This document shows positions 9,163-13,804 of a DNA stretch of 64,000 nucleotides, piece by piece; the first letter of the stretch is position 1, and each line of letters begins with the position of its first letter. The notes beneath the pieces were generated by a model. It ran no database searches. It saw nothing but the letters and a program-made list of their open reading frames with translations, and was not told the DNA's origin. This stretch comes from Candidatus Saccharimonadota bacterium (lineage in GTDB: Bacteria; Patescibacteriota; Saccharimonadia; Saccharimonadales; Saccharimonadaceae), in contig JAFWHO010000004.1 of NCBI GenBank assembly GCA_017515105.1, positions 124,001-188,000 on the forward strand, given 5' to 3'. The position numbers were made by a program, and so were the translations under genes.

Positions 9163-9247
9163 GCCCGGGTGGTGGAATTGGTAGACACGTATGCCTTAGG
9201 AGCATATGCCATTCGGTGTGCAGGTTCAAGTCCTGTCCCGGGCACCA
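9163..9247 (+). tRNA. tRNA-Leu (anticodon UAG), CCA encoded
   Basis: The acceptor stem pairs GCCCGGG (9163-9169) with CCCGGGC (9237-9243), followed by A and the encoded CCA (9245-9247). The anticodon loop is CTTAGGA with anticodon TAG, flanked by TATGC/GCATA. The long variable arm and the TTCAAGTC T-loop are as expected for a class II leucine tRNA. Its last 21 nt are repeated twice downstream. Confidence 0.95.
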
Positions 9248-9416
9248 AGCACATCTATCGATGTGCTTTAAAAAGTTAGTCTTGTTCTTCGAATCAAGTC
9301 CTGTCCCGGGCACCATTCGAACCTGATGCCTCTAGTGGGCATTTTTTAGTTGGGACTTGAATCTTCGATGCAAGTCCTGTCCCGGGCACCAAGCACACTT
9401 GATAGTGTGTTTTTTG
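9227..9416 (+). repeat. three copies of the tRNA-Leu 3' end, each followed by a different terminator
   Basis: The 21 nt ending the tRNA gene (9227-9247) recur without mismatch at 9295-9315 and 9371-9391. Each copy is followed by its own hairpin and T-tract: AGCACATC/GATGTGCT (9248 on), GATGCC/GGGCAT then T6, and CACACT/AGTGTG then T6. The spacers are themselves related (agtt, cttg and cttcga blocks at similar positions). Duplicated tRNA 3' ends are the usual attachment-site scar of tRNA-targeting integrases. No integrase gene is visible here. Confidence 0.85.
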
Positions 9417-9424
9417 GACTTGAA

Positions 9425-9483
9425 CCTGTTCTACCACAAAGGTAAATAAAAACTGCGTGTCTTTCAGAGCAATCAGCCAAACC
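9425..9483 (+). repeat. left 59-bp inverted repeat of the two-gene cassette
   Basis: Pairs in reverse complement with 13694-13752 over 59 nt with 51 identities. The outer 27 nt match 26 of 27, and the inner part ends in a perfect 9-nt AGCCAAACC block. All eight differences are transitions. The remaining gene-free bases up to 9510 show nothing further. Confidence 0.85.
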
Positions 9484-9510
9484 TTTACATGATCTTAGGT
9501 AAATAGTTTG

Positions 9511-12500
9511 TTATGTTGTAGAGATTTCTCTTTCAGCTCGTTGTATAATACTACTGATATCATCAATCGAGAAGCCATCGGCAAACATCGCTGGATTCTT
9601 TGCGTATAATCTACGCACCAAATCCTCTACAGTTTTAAATGAATAATCATTTCCTGCAAGCGATCTACTCTTATTCGTGGAGGCACCGTATGGGCCATCC
9701 ATTAGCTGCATATCGACATCTAGATTATAGCCACGTTGTATCATGTCGTTAACCACTCCACCACCACCAACCGCTATCATGCAACCATCTTTGTCTTTAA
9801 CATATTCGAGCTGAGTATCTGGTAGATCCATCCAGTTCTCGGCTTTCCTGCCATCATGCTCCAGTATAGTCGCATGAGTGATTGTATTTGGTTCGACTCC
9901 GCCATTTTCTTCACGCGTTGCCTCCATTGTGAGTGTTCCGAGCAACACTATCGGATCATCGGGATTAGACTCGTTGCGACGATGAACTGCTTCATGCATA
10001 GTTTTTTCAACTCCGAAGTTCGTTCCACCAGTTACTATGAAAGTAGTATCCGGATTGAGGACATCGGCTAGAACCTGCATGGTCAATGCGATATTTCTTT
10101 GGTCTTTTGGCGTAATATTTGGCCAATTACTCTTCGAAGCGCCGGTTATCATAACTGGAATTTTCCCATCGGTTGCTTTTTCCACCTCTTCAGAATTTGT
10201 TATAATTCCAATCTTTTCGAGTCTTTCGTCTAGTTGTCTTGCGGCTTCAGCTTTCTCTGCGGCATATCTTTCAGATACAGCTCGACTATATCTTGGCTGA
10301 CCATCTGGCGTGGAATAGACGACATTATCATACAAAGGGTTAACGTCGTCAAGACGTGGATGGCTCATCTCTCTTTCGGTTGCCTTTGCTAAAACCTTAG
10401 CCTCAGTTTGCCTCATCTTTTCAAAATCTTCTGGTTCTAGACCAGCCGCAGTCGCAAGTAAGGCTTCTTGCTCCCCAGCTGTTGAGTAAAGTCCGCCACC
10501 GTCTGTGCCTAAAACTACATCAACGCCAGCATCGAGATATTTTTTGATTGGAATTTCAGCAATACTGTTGATATTATTCAAGGCCAAGTTGGAGCTAATA
10601 TTGAATTCAATAATCGCGCCCATTTCTTTTGCGAGTTGAATTGTTTCTTCGTCCACGCCATATAAGCCATGCCCAATCCTAACTCTAGGCATAGGATACT
10701 CTTGCCCATCAGCTTCTTCACGAGCCCTGTGTTCGTCATAAATTATACGAAGCGTATCTTTTACGTTGTCCTTGAACATTGGGTTTTCGCCGGCATGAAC
10801 GCGTATAGTAAAATCAGGGTCTTCCGACATGGTATATTTTGCTAGTGCCTGAAGCTCATCTTTGAATGTTTCGGTAGAGTTAGTTTCATGGCCCATAAAA
10901 TCAACCCCAACTATATATGGACTACGGGCTATACCTATAATTCTGTCCGTATCATCCATATTCCATTCTTTGTCAGAGTGTCGCCATAAACCAGCTACAA
11001 AACGTAATTTCACGCCAGTTTCAGCCTCGATTTCAGGCACATTCTGGTTGATCATTTCCATGTAATCACGATCACTAATGAATGACGAATATGACAACTC
11101 GGCGTACTCTATGCCAGTATCTCGATACGTTTCTGCAAGAGAATGGAGCAAATCAGGGAACAGCTCCTTGTTTTTCGTGAATGGACCACGCAAGGCATAA
11201 ATATCTTCCATTTTATTAAATGTTTCTTGGGTAACTGGAGAAATCATTAGTCGTGCTTTAAGCGCGTCAAGGTCGCCATCGTTAACCGAAGATAATTCTA
11301 TGTTGCCATTTTCGTCTACTATATATTTGCTAACGTCAACGCCGGCTTTTGCTAGGTATTCTGCTGGGTATGAGATATTGTGTTTTTTGCCAACTTCAAT
11401 TAAAGAATCAGGAGTAATTGCGCCAGCAAAATGAGTATGTAAGTCCGTCTTTGGTCTAAAATCGGTTAGTTTTTCTCTAGAAAATGGAACCCCATTTTCT
11501 TTTCCTTGTGCCAACGAGCGAAGCTCAAAAGAGGTGAGCTTATTGACGCTTTGAATATCGCCAGTAGAGCGACTGACATCTATAAATATAGTATCTCTAA
11601 TGGAGAATCTCCATATATCTTCATCTTCAGTAGGTGAAATTGAAGAAATATCTCGTAGATTCTCGACGATTTTGCGGCTTAAATATTCATCGTTATTTGA
11701 ACACTCAAGGTCATAATCCATACCTTCTTCGGAAGCCTCGAAAACAACCTTCAATATGTTGCTGTAGTCCAAAAACGCTTCTGAGATTCGTTCTTTGTCT
11801 TTCTCGTATTTGCTTTCGTCAAGCGAAGAGTGCTCTTCCACATTTGATTTTGGCTGAAATGGCACTTTTTTGCCTATATTATCCCGCGTAGTTTCACTAG
11901 ATTCCGAAGTTTTGTTTACATCCTCATGATAGTCGTTGGTATTTGTATCCTTGTTTTCCCAGCCTGTTGATTCTGGCTCAGTGTTGCCATCAGTCGATGT
12001 ATTATCTATCTGCTTTATATCCTCTATAAAACCATCCACACTTCCTTCAAGAGGCTTTTCGGCTGTTATGCCAGAGTTAGATTCATCTGCTTTATCAGCT
12101 ATGTTGTCCCAAGTAGTTGGTTCCTCCATCGCTGGCGCTTCAGCTGCTGAAGTCTCTCCAGAACGACTATAGGTGTCATAGAAATCTCTCGGATTAATAG
12201 CATACATGTCATCTGGATTGGTAATATTGATGAAACTACCTTTAGGCATGTTCATCTCTTCTCCCCATTGCGAAATAGTGAGAGCTTCTTTTGTTTCGAC
12301 AAACTTTTGTGGACCGCCTACAGGCTTAAATATATCTGGGTGCTCAGGGTCAACCTCATATTTCTCGCGGAATGTCTTATTGTCAATAATCCATTGGTTT
12401 ACGTGGCCATTTTTGTCGACTATCGGGTTACCCTCGGCATCCGTTTTAGTTGCAATCCATCCAGTTTCGCCAGTTTCTTCATCTGCCGTTACGGTAGCGA

Positions 12501-12741
12501 CTTTTTCCTGAATCGGATTGCCGTCTTCATCTTCGCTCCAAGAAATGACTTCTTGTCCGGATTCGCCTTTGACCGCACCAATGCGAGCGTGCTTTGCCGC
12601 TTCGAATACTTCCAAACTGCCGTCGGCTAAGCCAGCCTCGACATATTCTTTTGTATTAACTTTGCGATATTCCATTTTTTCCCAACCGGTATTACTAGTA
12701 TTTTCACTATCATTAGTAAGGATTGTCTCTTTCGAGTTCAT
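9511..12741 (-). CDS. PGDYG-like / adenosine-deaminase-like / SLOG-like multidomain protein
   Basis: 1076 aa. Residues about 25-195 hold two short PGDYG-like units: GWIATKTD then FREKYE, and GSFINITNP then DFYDTY. A disordered S/E/T-rich linker (about 195-330) leads to an adenosine-deaminase fold (about 428-800). It has HTH metal ligands (H435, H437), HAGE (H649, catalytic E652), IGHG (H691) and GTDGGG (D747). The second Asp of the usual TDDP motif is Gly748. Residues about 870-1045 look like a SLOG/LOG Rossmann domain: MITGASKS, VTGGTNFGVEKTMHEA and VGGGGV (1002-1005). SLOG domains bind or process nucleotide ligands in several bacterial conflict systems. It has no signal peptide, so it is cytoplasmic. 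GGAGGA precedes the start, with a TGATACAAT-like box upstream. A nucleotide-sensing deaminase is my inference; purine salvage is the alternative. Confidence 0.8.
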   Translation of the reverse strand: MNSKETILTNDSENTSNTGWEKMEYRKVNTKEYVEAGLADGSLEVFEAAKHARIGAVKGESGQEVISWSEDEDGNPIQEKVATVTADEETGETGWIATKTDAEGNPIVDKNGHVNQWIIDNKTFREKYEVDPEHPDIFKPVGGPQKFVETKEALTISQWGEEMNMPKGSFINITNPDDMYAINPRDFYDTYSRSGETSAAEAPAMEEPTTWDNIADKADESNSGITAEKPLEGSVDGFIEDIKQIDNTSTDGNTEPESTGWENKDTNTNDYHEDVNKTSESSETTRDNIGKKVPFQPKSNVEEHSSLDESKYEKDKERISEAFLDYSNILKVVFEASEEGMDYDLECSNNDEYLSRKIVENLRDISSISPTEDEDIWRFSIRDTIFIDVSRSTGDIQSVNKLTSFELRSLAQGKENGVPFSREKLTDFRPKTDLHTHFAGAITPDSLIEVGKKHNISYPAEYLAKAGVDVSKYIVDENGNIELSSVNDGDLDALKARLMISPVTQETFNKMEDIYALRGPFTKNKELFPDLLHSLAETYRDTGIEYAELSYSSFISDRDYMEMINQNVPEIEAETGVKLRFVAGLWRHSDKEWNMDDTDRIIGIARSPYIVGVDFMGHETNSTETFKDELQALAKYTMSEDPDFTIRVHAGENPMFKDNVKDTLRIIYDEHRAREEADGQEYPMPRVRIGHGLYGVDEETIQLAKEMGAIIEFNISSNLALNNINSIAEIPIKKYLDAGVDVVLGTDGGGLYSTAGEQEALLATAAGLEPEDFEKMRQTEAKVLAKATEREMSHPRLDDVNPLYDNVVYSTPDGQPRYSRAVSERYAAEKAEAARQLDERLEKIGIITNSEEVEKATDGKIPVMITGASKSNWPNITPKDQRNIALTMQVLADVLNPDTTFIVTGGTNFGVEKTMHEAVHRRNESNPDDPIVLLGTLTMEATREENGGVEPNTITHATILEHDGRKAENWMDLPDTQLEYVKDKDGCMIAVGGGGVVNDMIQRGYNLDVDMQLMDGPYGASTNKSRSLAGNDYSFKTVEDLVRRLYAKNPAMFADGFSIDDISSIIQRAEREISTT

Positions 12742-12834
12742 TATAAGTGTTCCTCCGGTTAAGTTATTACTTTTATTGTATCACAGAATTATGTGGTTGT
12801 GAGCCTATACATCTTTATTGAAGATTGAATTTTT

Positions 12835-12867
12835 AGAAAAGGGAAAAGGCAGCTCCGAAAAGCTGCC
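12835..12867 (-). terminator. terminator of the 202-aa cassette gene
   Basis: On the minus strand GGCAGCT-tttcgg-AGCTGCC is followed by a T-rich run (TTTTCCCTTTTC). It lies about 35 nt past the stop of the upstream gene, so the two cassette genes are probably separate transcripts. Confidence 0.75.
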
Positions 12868-12902
12868 TTGGTAGGTTTTTCTGAGACTACCGCTCAGTTC
12901 AA

Positions 12903-13511
12903 TTACTCGTTCCAGCCTGCGCCGAGAACTTCGTCAGCCGGTCCGTAGGCCGCAAAGTCGTTTTCGCTCAGGATATAGCGATCGCCCTCGGCGAGGTTGT
13001 CGGGGTCTTCCTTGTAGTAGGGGGCGCAGAAGTAACATTTTGCATCGCCGTTCTGCGGACCACCCCAAGGTGCTTCGATTTCCACGTCTTCGCCGGTGTC
13101 ATTTTTGATGATCCTTGCCATACCCTTAGCGCGATATACGCCAGGCTCATTTGTGGGTTCATAGCGCTCATGGAATGTCGCATCCGGAATAGCATAGTTG
13201 TTTTCGTGATCGGTTTCCCAAGCTTTGGGATTGGTTGCGATCCACTCTCCAACTTCGACAGTGCGGGTGTCTTCCAGCTCAGCGCTGCGAACGCAGCCCT
13301 TGCCTTCAACAGGAATCTCGCGCATCACGTATGTGTCGATCACATACTTGCCTTTTTCGTTGTCGAAACGAACGTCTTTGTCGGCATATTCGCCAGCTTT
13401 GAGTCCGTCCTCCGTGATCTGCACGGCTTTGATGACACCTTTCTTGGCGTAGATGGCCGCTGCTGCAAACTGGTTGGTATATTCCTCGGTGTTCAGATTG
13501 ATCTTCTTCAT
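12903..13511 (-). CDS. PGDYG-like protein related to the N-terminus of the deaminase-SLOG protein
   Basis: 202 aa, cytoplasmic. The order of motifs matches residues about 90-195 of the neighbouring 1076-aa protein: GEWIATNP, then FHERYEP, then WGGPQNGD (GGPQ is also in the large protein), then DRYILSENDFAAY. The N-terminal 85 residues form a separate part beginning MKKINLNTEEYTNQFAAA. A CYFC pair lies in the second unit. GC content is clearly higher than in the surrounding genes, pointing to a different origin. A strong promoter and a folded leader of about 110 nt precede it, with AAGGAG before the ATG. A partner, inhibitor or sensor for the large protein is an inference from shared domains and linkage. 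Confidence 0.75.
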   Translation of the reverse strand: MKKINLNTEEYTNQFAAAAIYAKKGVIKAVQITEDGLKAGEYADKDVRFDNEKGKYVIDTYVMREIPVEGKGCVRSAELEDTRTVEVGEWIATNPKAWETDHENNYAIPDATFHERYEPTNEPGVYRAKGMARIIKNDTGEDVEIEAPWGGPQNGDAKCYFCAPYYKEDPDNLAEGDRYILSENDFAAYGPADEVLGAGWNE

Positions 13512-13622
13512 GGTAGCGTCTCCTTTCTATGGATACAATTTTTGAAAAATGCCATAGCACTACTTACGAGTAATTCAGATTTGTAAGGTGCTATTGTAAG
13601 ATTAAGCATTTTTTAATCTTAT
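13512..13622 (-). promoter_or_regulatory. structured 5' leader of the 202-aa cassette gene
   Basis: The predicted leader is about 110 nt. It can form AAGATTAA/TTAATCTT near its 5' end, then a longer arm with ATAGCAC/GTGCTAT enclosing CTTAC/GTAAG. AAGGAG sits about 8 nt before the ATG. This contrasts with the leaderless style of most genes here and suggests RNA-level control. Confidence 0.55.
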
Positions 13623-13628
13623 CTGCAT

Positions 13629-13657
13629 ATTATAGCATACTTTATCTGTGATGTCAA
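13629..13657 (-). promoter_or_regulatory. consensus promoter of the 202-aa cassette gene
   Basis: On the minus strand TTGACA (13657-13652), a 17-nt spacer ending in TGC, and TATAAT (13634-13629). Both boxes match the sigma-70 consensus exactly, making it the strongest promoter seen in the window. Confidence 0.85.
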
Positions 13658-13693
13658 TTCTTATAACATATTATCTCTTTCCGTCCCAGATAT

Positions 13694-13752
13694 GGTTTGG
13701 CTAATTATCCTAAAAGACATGCAGCTTTTATTTACCTTTGTGGTAAAACAGG
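13694..13752 (-). repeat. right 59-bp inverted repeat of the two-gene cassette
   Basis: Reverse-complement partner of 9425-9483, equal in length and ungapped. It lies upstream of the 202-aa gene promoter and 20 nt inside a degenerate copy of the tRNA-end/terminator unit. Confidence 0.85.
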
Positions 13753-13763
13753 CTCTAGCGATG

Positions 13764-13804
13764 TCGTAAAGTCGCACCAAGTACACTTTGCAGTGTGTTT
13801 TTTT
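13764..13804 (+). repeat. degenerate tRNA-end plus terminator, right edge of the island
   Basis: The stretch gcaccaag-t-acactt-tgc-agtgtg-T7 (13774-13804) repeats the third left-hand copy at 9386-9416 (gcaccaag-c-acactt-gat-agtgtg-T6). The preceding aaagtc looks like a tRNA end from which about 10 nt were lost. It works structurally as an intrinsic terminator. It probably marks the right junction of the insertion behind tRNA-Leu. Confidence 0.65.

Follow-up and report, generated by a model that had tools for sequence, protein, structure and literature searches.

We analyzed a 64,000-nucleotide stretch (the window; contig JAFWHO010000004.1, positions 124,001 to 188,000) of the 811-kb, four-contig genome of a Candidatus Saccharimonadota bacterium. 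Behind a tRNA-Leu gene it carries a mobile-looking cassette whose main gene (9511..12741, minus strand) encodes a 1076-amino-acid protein made up of a PGDYG-like module, a linker, a small N-terminal domain, an adenosine deaminase (ADA) domain and a predicted C-terminal TRPM-type SLOG domain. We refer to the last two as ADA-SLOG. We tentatively favor the view that this is a horizontally spread, ligand-gated adenine-nucleotide deaminase with an outcome as in Cad1 and RADAR, a view in which we infer the ligand, the substrate, the regulation and the role in defense. A sequence-only reading of the window, made without database searches, had proposed the same combination of deaminase, SLOG and PGDYG-like domains, and this make-up is supported by Pfam, Foldseek, family-profile and leave-one-out searches.

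A deaminase domain lacking two substrate-binding aspartates

The ADA-fold domain covers residues 425 to 796 (10354..11469, minus strand) and matches A_deaminase (PF00962) at E = 3e-24; its 86.1 bits exceed the cut-off of 27 and place the protein within the superfamily. When its AlphaFold2 (AF2) model was compared with solved structures by Foldseek, ADAs ranked at the top (6n9m, 1.2e-11), and Cad1 (8z3k, 7.5e-9) was found further down. Residues H435, H437, H649, E652, H691 and D747 are invariant. Indeed, the metal ligands and the catalytic glutamate (the HxH, HAGE, GHG and D set) are retained in all 17 members of our extended family set; the core ADA-SLOG set comprises seven. The protein nevertheless departs from adenosine deaminases proper (TIGR01430), scoring 78.1 bits against a cut-off of 216.55 and missing both aspartates that contact the substrate: the position of mouse ADA D19 is occupied by A439 and that of D296 by G748. 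The same holds for the family, since Asp19 is replaced by A, S or N and Asp296 by G in 17/17 members. The "purine deaminase" of the sequence-only reading therefore stands as far as fold, metal site and catalytic glutamate are concerned but needs qualifying, as the two substrate-binding aspartates are gone.

Because these two residues are missing, as they are in Cad1, free adenosine is an unlikely substrate of the family. TaqCad1 has Gly264 and Asn549 at the D19 and D296 positions. With its sensor domain occupied, it deaminates ATP but acts hardly at all on adenosine, and variants in which the aspartates were restored show no reaction with ATP (PMC12669630). By parallel with TaqCad1, a 5'-phosphorylated substrate is likely, although the parallel names no particular one. 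CARF-ADA was also the sole defense model of PADLOC to be matched, in all five members scanned; positions 229-556 of the 605 in this model (CARF_ADA) align to residues 397-763, which is essentially the ADA half. At the window locus this single partial match was the only one, and no complete PADLOC defense system was present.

A probable TRPM-type SLOG domain at the C terminus

Residues 855-1052 (9586..10179, minus strand) correspond to a predicted TRPM-type SLOG domain (LSDAT) with a TGGTNxGVE loop, the glutamate of which (E912) is kept in 7/7 core members. On the window protein, the match to Pfam LSDAT_prok was weak (E = 0.08 at full length, 0.0085 for the domain alone) and reached 15.8 bits against a curated cut-off of 25.4. 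Four of the five family members searched match both LSDAT_prok (best 4.3e-4) and LSDAT_euk (best 2e-3), and no Pfam family other than LSDAT was reported for the C-terminal domain of the window protein. Additionally, a family profile run against PDB found TRPM2 chains as its best matches, at E = 0.012 for the best and none significant singly. The chains sharing the loop belong to TRPM2 and TRPM7 (TGGTNTGVMK, vs TGGTNHGVEK in the window protein), and the TRPM2 match has a methionine where the window loop has E912. It is the agreement of these independent searches, rather than any single E value, that gives the assignment its weight. In the AF2 model the domain alternates alpha and beta elements, and the Foldseek list for the large protein is dominated by ADA. 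The SLOG domain proposed by the sequence-only reading is thus backed by profiles that point to LSDAT and TRPM2; as to its structure, the evidence is supportive and comes from sequence.

The MHR1/2 region of TRPM2 binds ADP-ribose (ADPR) (PMC11479946). In the LOG clade, SLOG enzymes break the adenine-ribose bond, and viral SLOG domains have been proposed to process immune signals (PMC9503650).

The N-terminal half of the protein is less well defined. Residues 1-316 of the AF2 model have a predicted local distance difference test (pLDDT) score below 50, whereas the ADA and C-terminal domains mostly lie between 70 and 90. The PGDYG-like module (residues about 14-209; 12115..12702, minus strand) is recognized by homology and is followed by a low-complexity linker (residues about 210-316; 11794..12114, minus strand) predicted from pLDDT to be disordered. 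A small alpha/beta domain (residues 316-402; 11536..11796, minus strand) is poorly conserved, yet it is found in all five aligned members. Searching the model against a viral structure library by Foldseek gave nothing significant.

PGDYG modules recur with ADA-SLOG

Leave-one-out profiles recovered every PGDYG copy: the 202-amino-acid protein encoded next to the large gene (6e-8), the N terminus of the window protein (1e-20), a gene neighboring ADA-SLOG in an alphaproteobacterium (L003, 3e-49) and a C-terminal fusion (L070, 1e-30). A Robbsia protein annotated as PGDYG by NCBI matched the L003 copy at 7e-17. The copies are divergent, and the Pfam cut-off for PF14083 is reached neither by the window copies, which gave no match, nor by the L003 copy (22.3 bits against 27). 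The latter is nonetheless the only PF14083 match in its genome.

Three arrangements were seen in three bacterial groups, the two besides the window's being unrelated gut bacteria: fused to the N terminus (window), fused to the C terminus (a 1006-amino-acid clostridial protein, L070, genome G1380) and as an adjacent upstream gene (L003). This amounts to 3/7 core ADA-SLOG loci, and the sequences indicate that the link is real though not obligatory. That PGDYG and ADA-SLOG would meet again elsewhere, as the sequence-only reading implied, is borne out by the C-terminal fusion and by the adjacent gene. By eye, a 239-amino-acid protein directly downstream of a clostridial ADA-SLOG (L004:8450-9169) also looked PGDYG-like; it failed independent profiles and was not counted. 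It could be a very divergent relative.

PGDYG proteins occur in 27/285 genomes of the window's family, at the loci examined as genes without ADA-SLOG. Two of these standalone proteins (L087 in G744 and L088 in G1467) are 68% identical to the N-terminal module of the window protein. In the simplest history, an ADA-SLOG gene would have been acquired and then joined to a PGDYG gene of local origin. The standalone genes (L087-L100) have no conserved neighbors and sometimes stand two in a row (L090, L091); that of L087 adjoins a DinJ/YafQ-like toxin-antitoxin pair and that of L089 lies near a serine recombinase. Homologues are also present in large phages, and in Xanthomonas phage XacN1 (L026) the genes around the PGDYG-like one include those for NADAR, NMNAT/Nudix and nicotinate phosphoribosyltransferase (NAPRT). 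Our literature search found no paper using the name PGDYG.

The 202-amino-acid gene as a probable independent unit

The second gene of the cassette (12903..13511, minus strand) encodes a protein without any Pfam match by itself, recognized through PGDYG homology only. Its model has a pLDDT of 54, and a Foldseek search of the viral library with it found no match under 0.001. Upstream of the gene lies a TG-extended sigma-70 promoter agreeing at 12/12 positions (TTGACA-N17-TATAAT; 13629..13657, minus strand), and a terminator-like hairpin (12846..12869, minus strand) lies between the two genes. Because of this promoter and this hairpin, the two genes probably do not form a simple operon. Over the promoter scan as a whole, sites were no more numerous than in shuffles; the 12/12 site recurs at an orthologue in G767, and a similar hairpin follows that gene.

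The sequence-only reading had described this protein as the cognate partner of the large one. A second PGDYG-like protein is indeed encoded there, but the partnership is weakened by the commonness of PGDYG in the family and by lone orthologues: one is 68% identical (L094, G025), another is found in G767 (L093), and no ADA-SLOG was found in either genome. Given these lone orthologues, we rejected the protein as a firm cognate partner, and the simplest history is that its gene is an independent unit. The G767 orthologue (L093; also L101) stands alone about 280 nucleotides behind tRNA-Leu(TAA). With the conserved promoter and terminator it makes up a unit of one gene at another tRNA-Leu.

A mobile-looking cassette behind tRNA-Leu(TAG)

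The tRNA-Leu(TAG) gene (9163..9247, plus strand) is followed on the same strand by two extra copies of its 3' end, one perfect (9294..9315, 22/22) and one with a single difference (9370..9391, 21/22). An inverted repeat then encloses the 4.35-kb cassette, with a left arm at 9419..9483 (plus strand) and a right arm at 13694..13758 (minus strand, 85% complementary). Its alignment score was 80, whereas 300 shuffles reached 27 at most, and a genome search found no further copy beyond the two arms. Just outside lies a direct repeat of 30 nucleotides, composed of the end of the tRNA copy and a terminator-like hairpin (left copy 9386..9415, right copy 13774..13803, 87%, both plus strand). The interval is filled by the two minus-strand open reading frames (ORFs). 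The ORFs, the repeat alignment and the tRNA 3'-end copies confirm the boxed gene pair described from sequence alone, except that the inverted repeat measures 65 nucleotides and not 59.

To compare relatives we used rsmD as the synteny marker; the downstream lysozyme gene was discarded, as it is not syntenic. In 17 other genomes of the genus with rsmD and tRNA-Leu(TAG), the DNA after the tRNA is mostly different, and two relatives (L043, L047) have tRNA-end copies of the same kind. In G910 the order recG-rsmD-ORF-tRNA-Leu is directly followed by a metallo-beta-lactamase-like gene, whose window counterpart (67% identity) is located past the cassette. This locus has the window's gene order without the insert and therefore serves as an unoccupied reference. 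The duplicated tRNA 3' end and the variable content across relatives are what a tRNA-targeted integrative element displays, and the variable site and G910 agree with the earlier view of a mobile-looking cassette rather than a fixed core locus. No integrase is encoded between 9248 and 13803. A serine recombinase adjoins the L003 locus, and the search for att-like direct repeats around the L003 and L004 cassettes returned chance-like repeats only.

The tRNA-Leu(TAG) site may be a defense-prone hotspot. At this site (L085:1906-2538, L084), G739 carries a DUF3800 gene matching the PADLOC candidate-defense model PDC-M04A, and G834 carries HD_4-like and weakly Fic-like genes.

ADA-SLOG is a rare and patchy family

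Relatives of ADA-SLOG were found in metagenome-assembled genomes of an alphaproteobacterium (L003) and a clostridium (L004), in G337, G588, G1380 and G1368 and, in divergent form, in G1397. The core is 40-44% identical to that of the window between phyla (Clostridia, Alphaproteobacteria). Within the window's own family it occurs in 1/198 sampled genomes and within the class in 1/393, in both cases the window's own genome. By sequence, the ADA-SLOG core is thus a rare, patchy family, and because the distribution is patchy across phyla, it suggests horizontal transfer. In a tree of the ADA domain, window, L003, G588 and G1397 did not separate clearly, and the tree gives no proof of direction.

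A separate branch of nine clostridial proteins (L061-L069; about 815-840 amino acids) was set apart in the same tree (100/100). Its SLOG loop is altered to VIGHKxxGYEK, and the loci examined contain no PGDYG. The divergent ADA protein of G1397 (L072, 895 amino acids) has a strongly altered SLOG-like C terminus, and its gene lies directly downstream of that for ribosomal protein L9.

Weighing the explanations

We propose that the SLOG domain would bind a nucleotide signal, for which the TRPM2 precedent makes an ADP-ribose-like molecule most likely, and that binding would switch the deaminase on. The enzyme would then deaminate an adenine nucleotide with a 5' phosphate, for example (d)ATP, and the PGDYG module may tune or localize the response. 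By analogy with Cad1 and RADAR, the cell's response to an infection or conflict would end in nucleotide poisoning. Several observations weigh against this proposal. The individual SLOG matches all fall under the Pfam cut-offs, and the loop glutamate would equally fit a catalytic rather than a sensory role. Four of the seven core loci have no recognizable PGDYG (none near G337, G588 and G1368, unproven in L004). No known defense gene, nuclease or signal-producing enzyme adjoins the large gene, phage, plasmid and viral-contig collections gave no ADA-SLOG matches, and the nine-member clostridial branch, with its altered loop, lies beside core genes (ffh, a trmH-like methyltransferase). A narrower version, to which we give a rather low probability, is a stand-alone immune effector in which ADP-ribose-type signals directly activate an ATP/dATP-poisoning deaminase through the TRPM2-like SLOG, with PGDYG, also found in large phages, as a regulator or infection sensor.

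The main rival, which we consider somewhat unlikely, is a salvage or house-cleaning enzyme of a nucleotide-scavenging epibiont or gut bacterium, in which the ADA domain would deaminate odd or damaged purine nucleotides and the SLOG domain hydrolyze their N-glycosidic bond as LOG does. E912, conserved throughout the core where TRPM2 has methionine, has the spacing of the LOG catalytic glutamate (GGxGTxxE motif); LOG-clade enzymes split the adenine-ribose bond (PMC9503650) and divergent members adjoin core genes. However, the family is rare and patchy, resides in a variable tRNA site and has no adjoining salvage genes. The domain could instead bind ADP-ribose-type immune signals so that their adenine is inactivated, shielding a mobile element or parasite from host defenses. 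This counter-measure, which we regard as improbable, would suit a mobile-looking cassette, the phage PGDYG homologues including the XacN1 copy beside NADAR, NMNAT/Nudix and NAPRT genes, and the proposal that viral SLOG domains process such signals (PMC9503650), but ADA-SLOG is absent from the phage, plasmid and viral collections, and a single phage neighborhood points to NAD metabolism. A simple metabolic deaminase, to which unrelated domains were added and whose PGDYG neighbors are coincidental, would agree with the frequency of PGDYG in the family (27/285) and with the four core members without it; the separate N- and C-terminal fusions, and an ADA-SLOG gene adjoining the sole PF14083 match of genome G198, make it very unlikely. 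We give even less credit to the idea that the 202-amino-acid protein provides immunity against the large protein or inhibits it, and outnumbers it owing to a strong promoter and the terminator that follows. Gene order, promoter and terminator would allow this, as would a common PGDYG domain able to mimic the fused module, but the orthologues L094 and L093 are lone genes, with no ADA-SLOG found in the genomes that carry them, and as similar signals occur at the G767 orthologue, they are not specific to the window pair.

Deaminase effectors such as Cad1 and RADAR are a recent entry in bacterial immunity, each tied to a different sensor. If the favored reading of a ligand-gated deaminase is true, a third type of sensor, related to the ADP-ribose-sensing part of an animal TRPM2 channel, would widen this class, the uncharacterized PGDYG domain would gain a first functional handle, and such a system would be placed in ultra-small epibiont and gut bacteria. 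The stand-alone effector would link NAD-derived signaling to purine deamination in one protein. Were the function metabolic instead, the proteins would still define a noncanonical deaminase family.

Comparison with known systems

Compared to canonical adenosine deaminases (TIGR01430), the window protein has the same fold, metal ligands and catalytic glutamate but misses D19 and D296. The PGDYG-like copies share homology with proteins of large phages and with one annotated as PGDYG by NCBI, but unlike PF14083 proteins they are divergent, score under the Pfam cut-off and are fused to, or adjoin, a deaminase. With TRPM2 MHR1/2 and prokaryotic LSDAT the predicted SLOG domain shares the TGGTNxGV loop and the flanking pattern, its Pfam matches are restricted to LSDAT families and the chains it matches are chiefly TRPM; in contrast to TRPM2, the protein is a soluble enzyme and not a channel, has glutamate for methionine and scores under the curated cut-offs.

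Cad1/CAAD, the CARF-fused adenosine deaminase of type III CRISPR systems, joins a Rossmann-type domain to an ADA barrel, as the window protein is predicted to do, likewise deviates at D19 and D296 and gives, as PADLOC CARF-ADA, the best defense match. However, its sensor is an N-terminal CARF domain, while that of the window protein would be the C-terminal SLOG, the N terminus being PGDYG and linker; the substitutions differ (G and N in Cad1, A/S/N and G here), and the PGDYG module is extra. Inspection of the ORFs next to the core loci revealed no recognizable Cas genes; no genome-wide search for cas10 was made. RADAR (RdrA-RdrB) also pairs an ADA-fold nucleotide deaminase with a second protein, and its RdrB deaminates ATP and dATP (PMC9994260). 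Unlike RADAR, the window system has no AAA+ ATPase partner corresponding to RdrA, carries other extra domains and gave no PADLOC RADAR match. With neither a CARF domain nor an ATPase partner, ADA-SLOG is a member of neither system and is best read as resembling both in the way it works.

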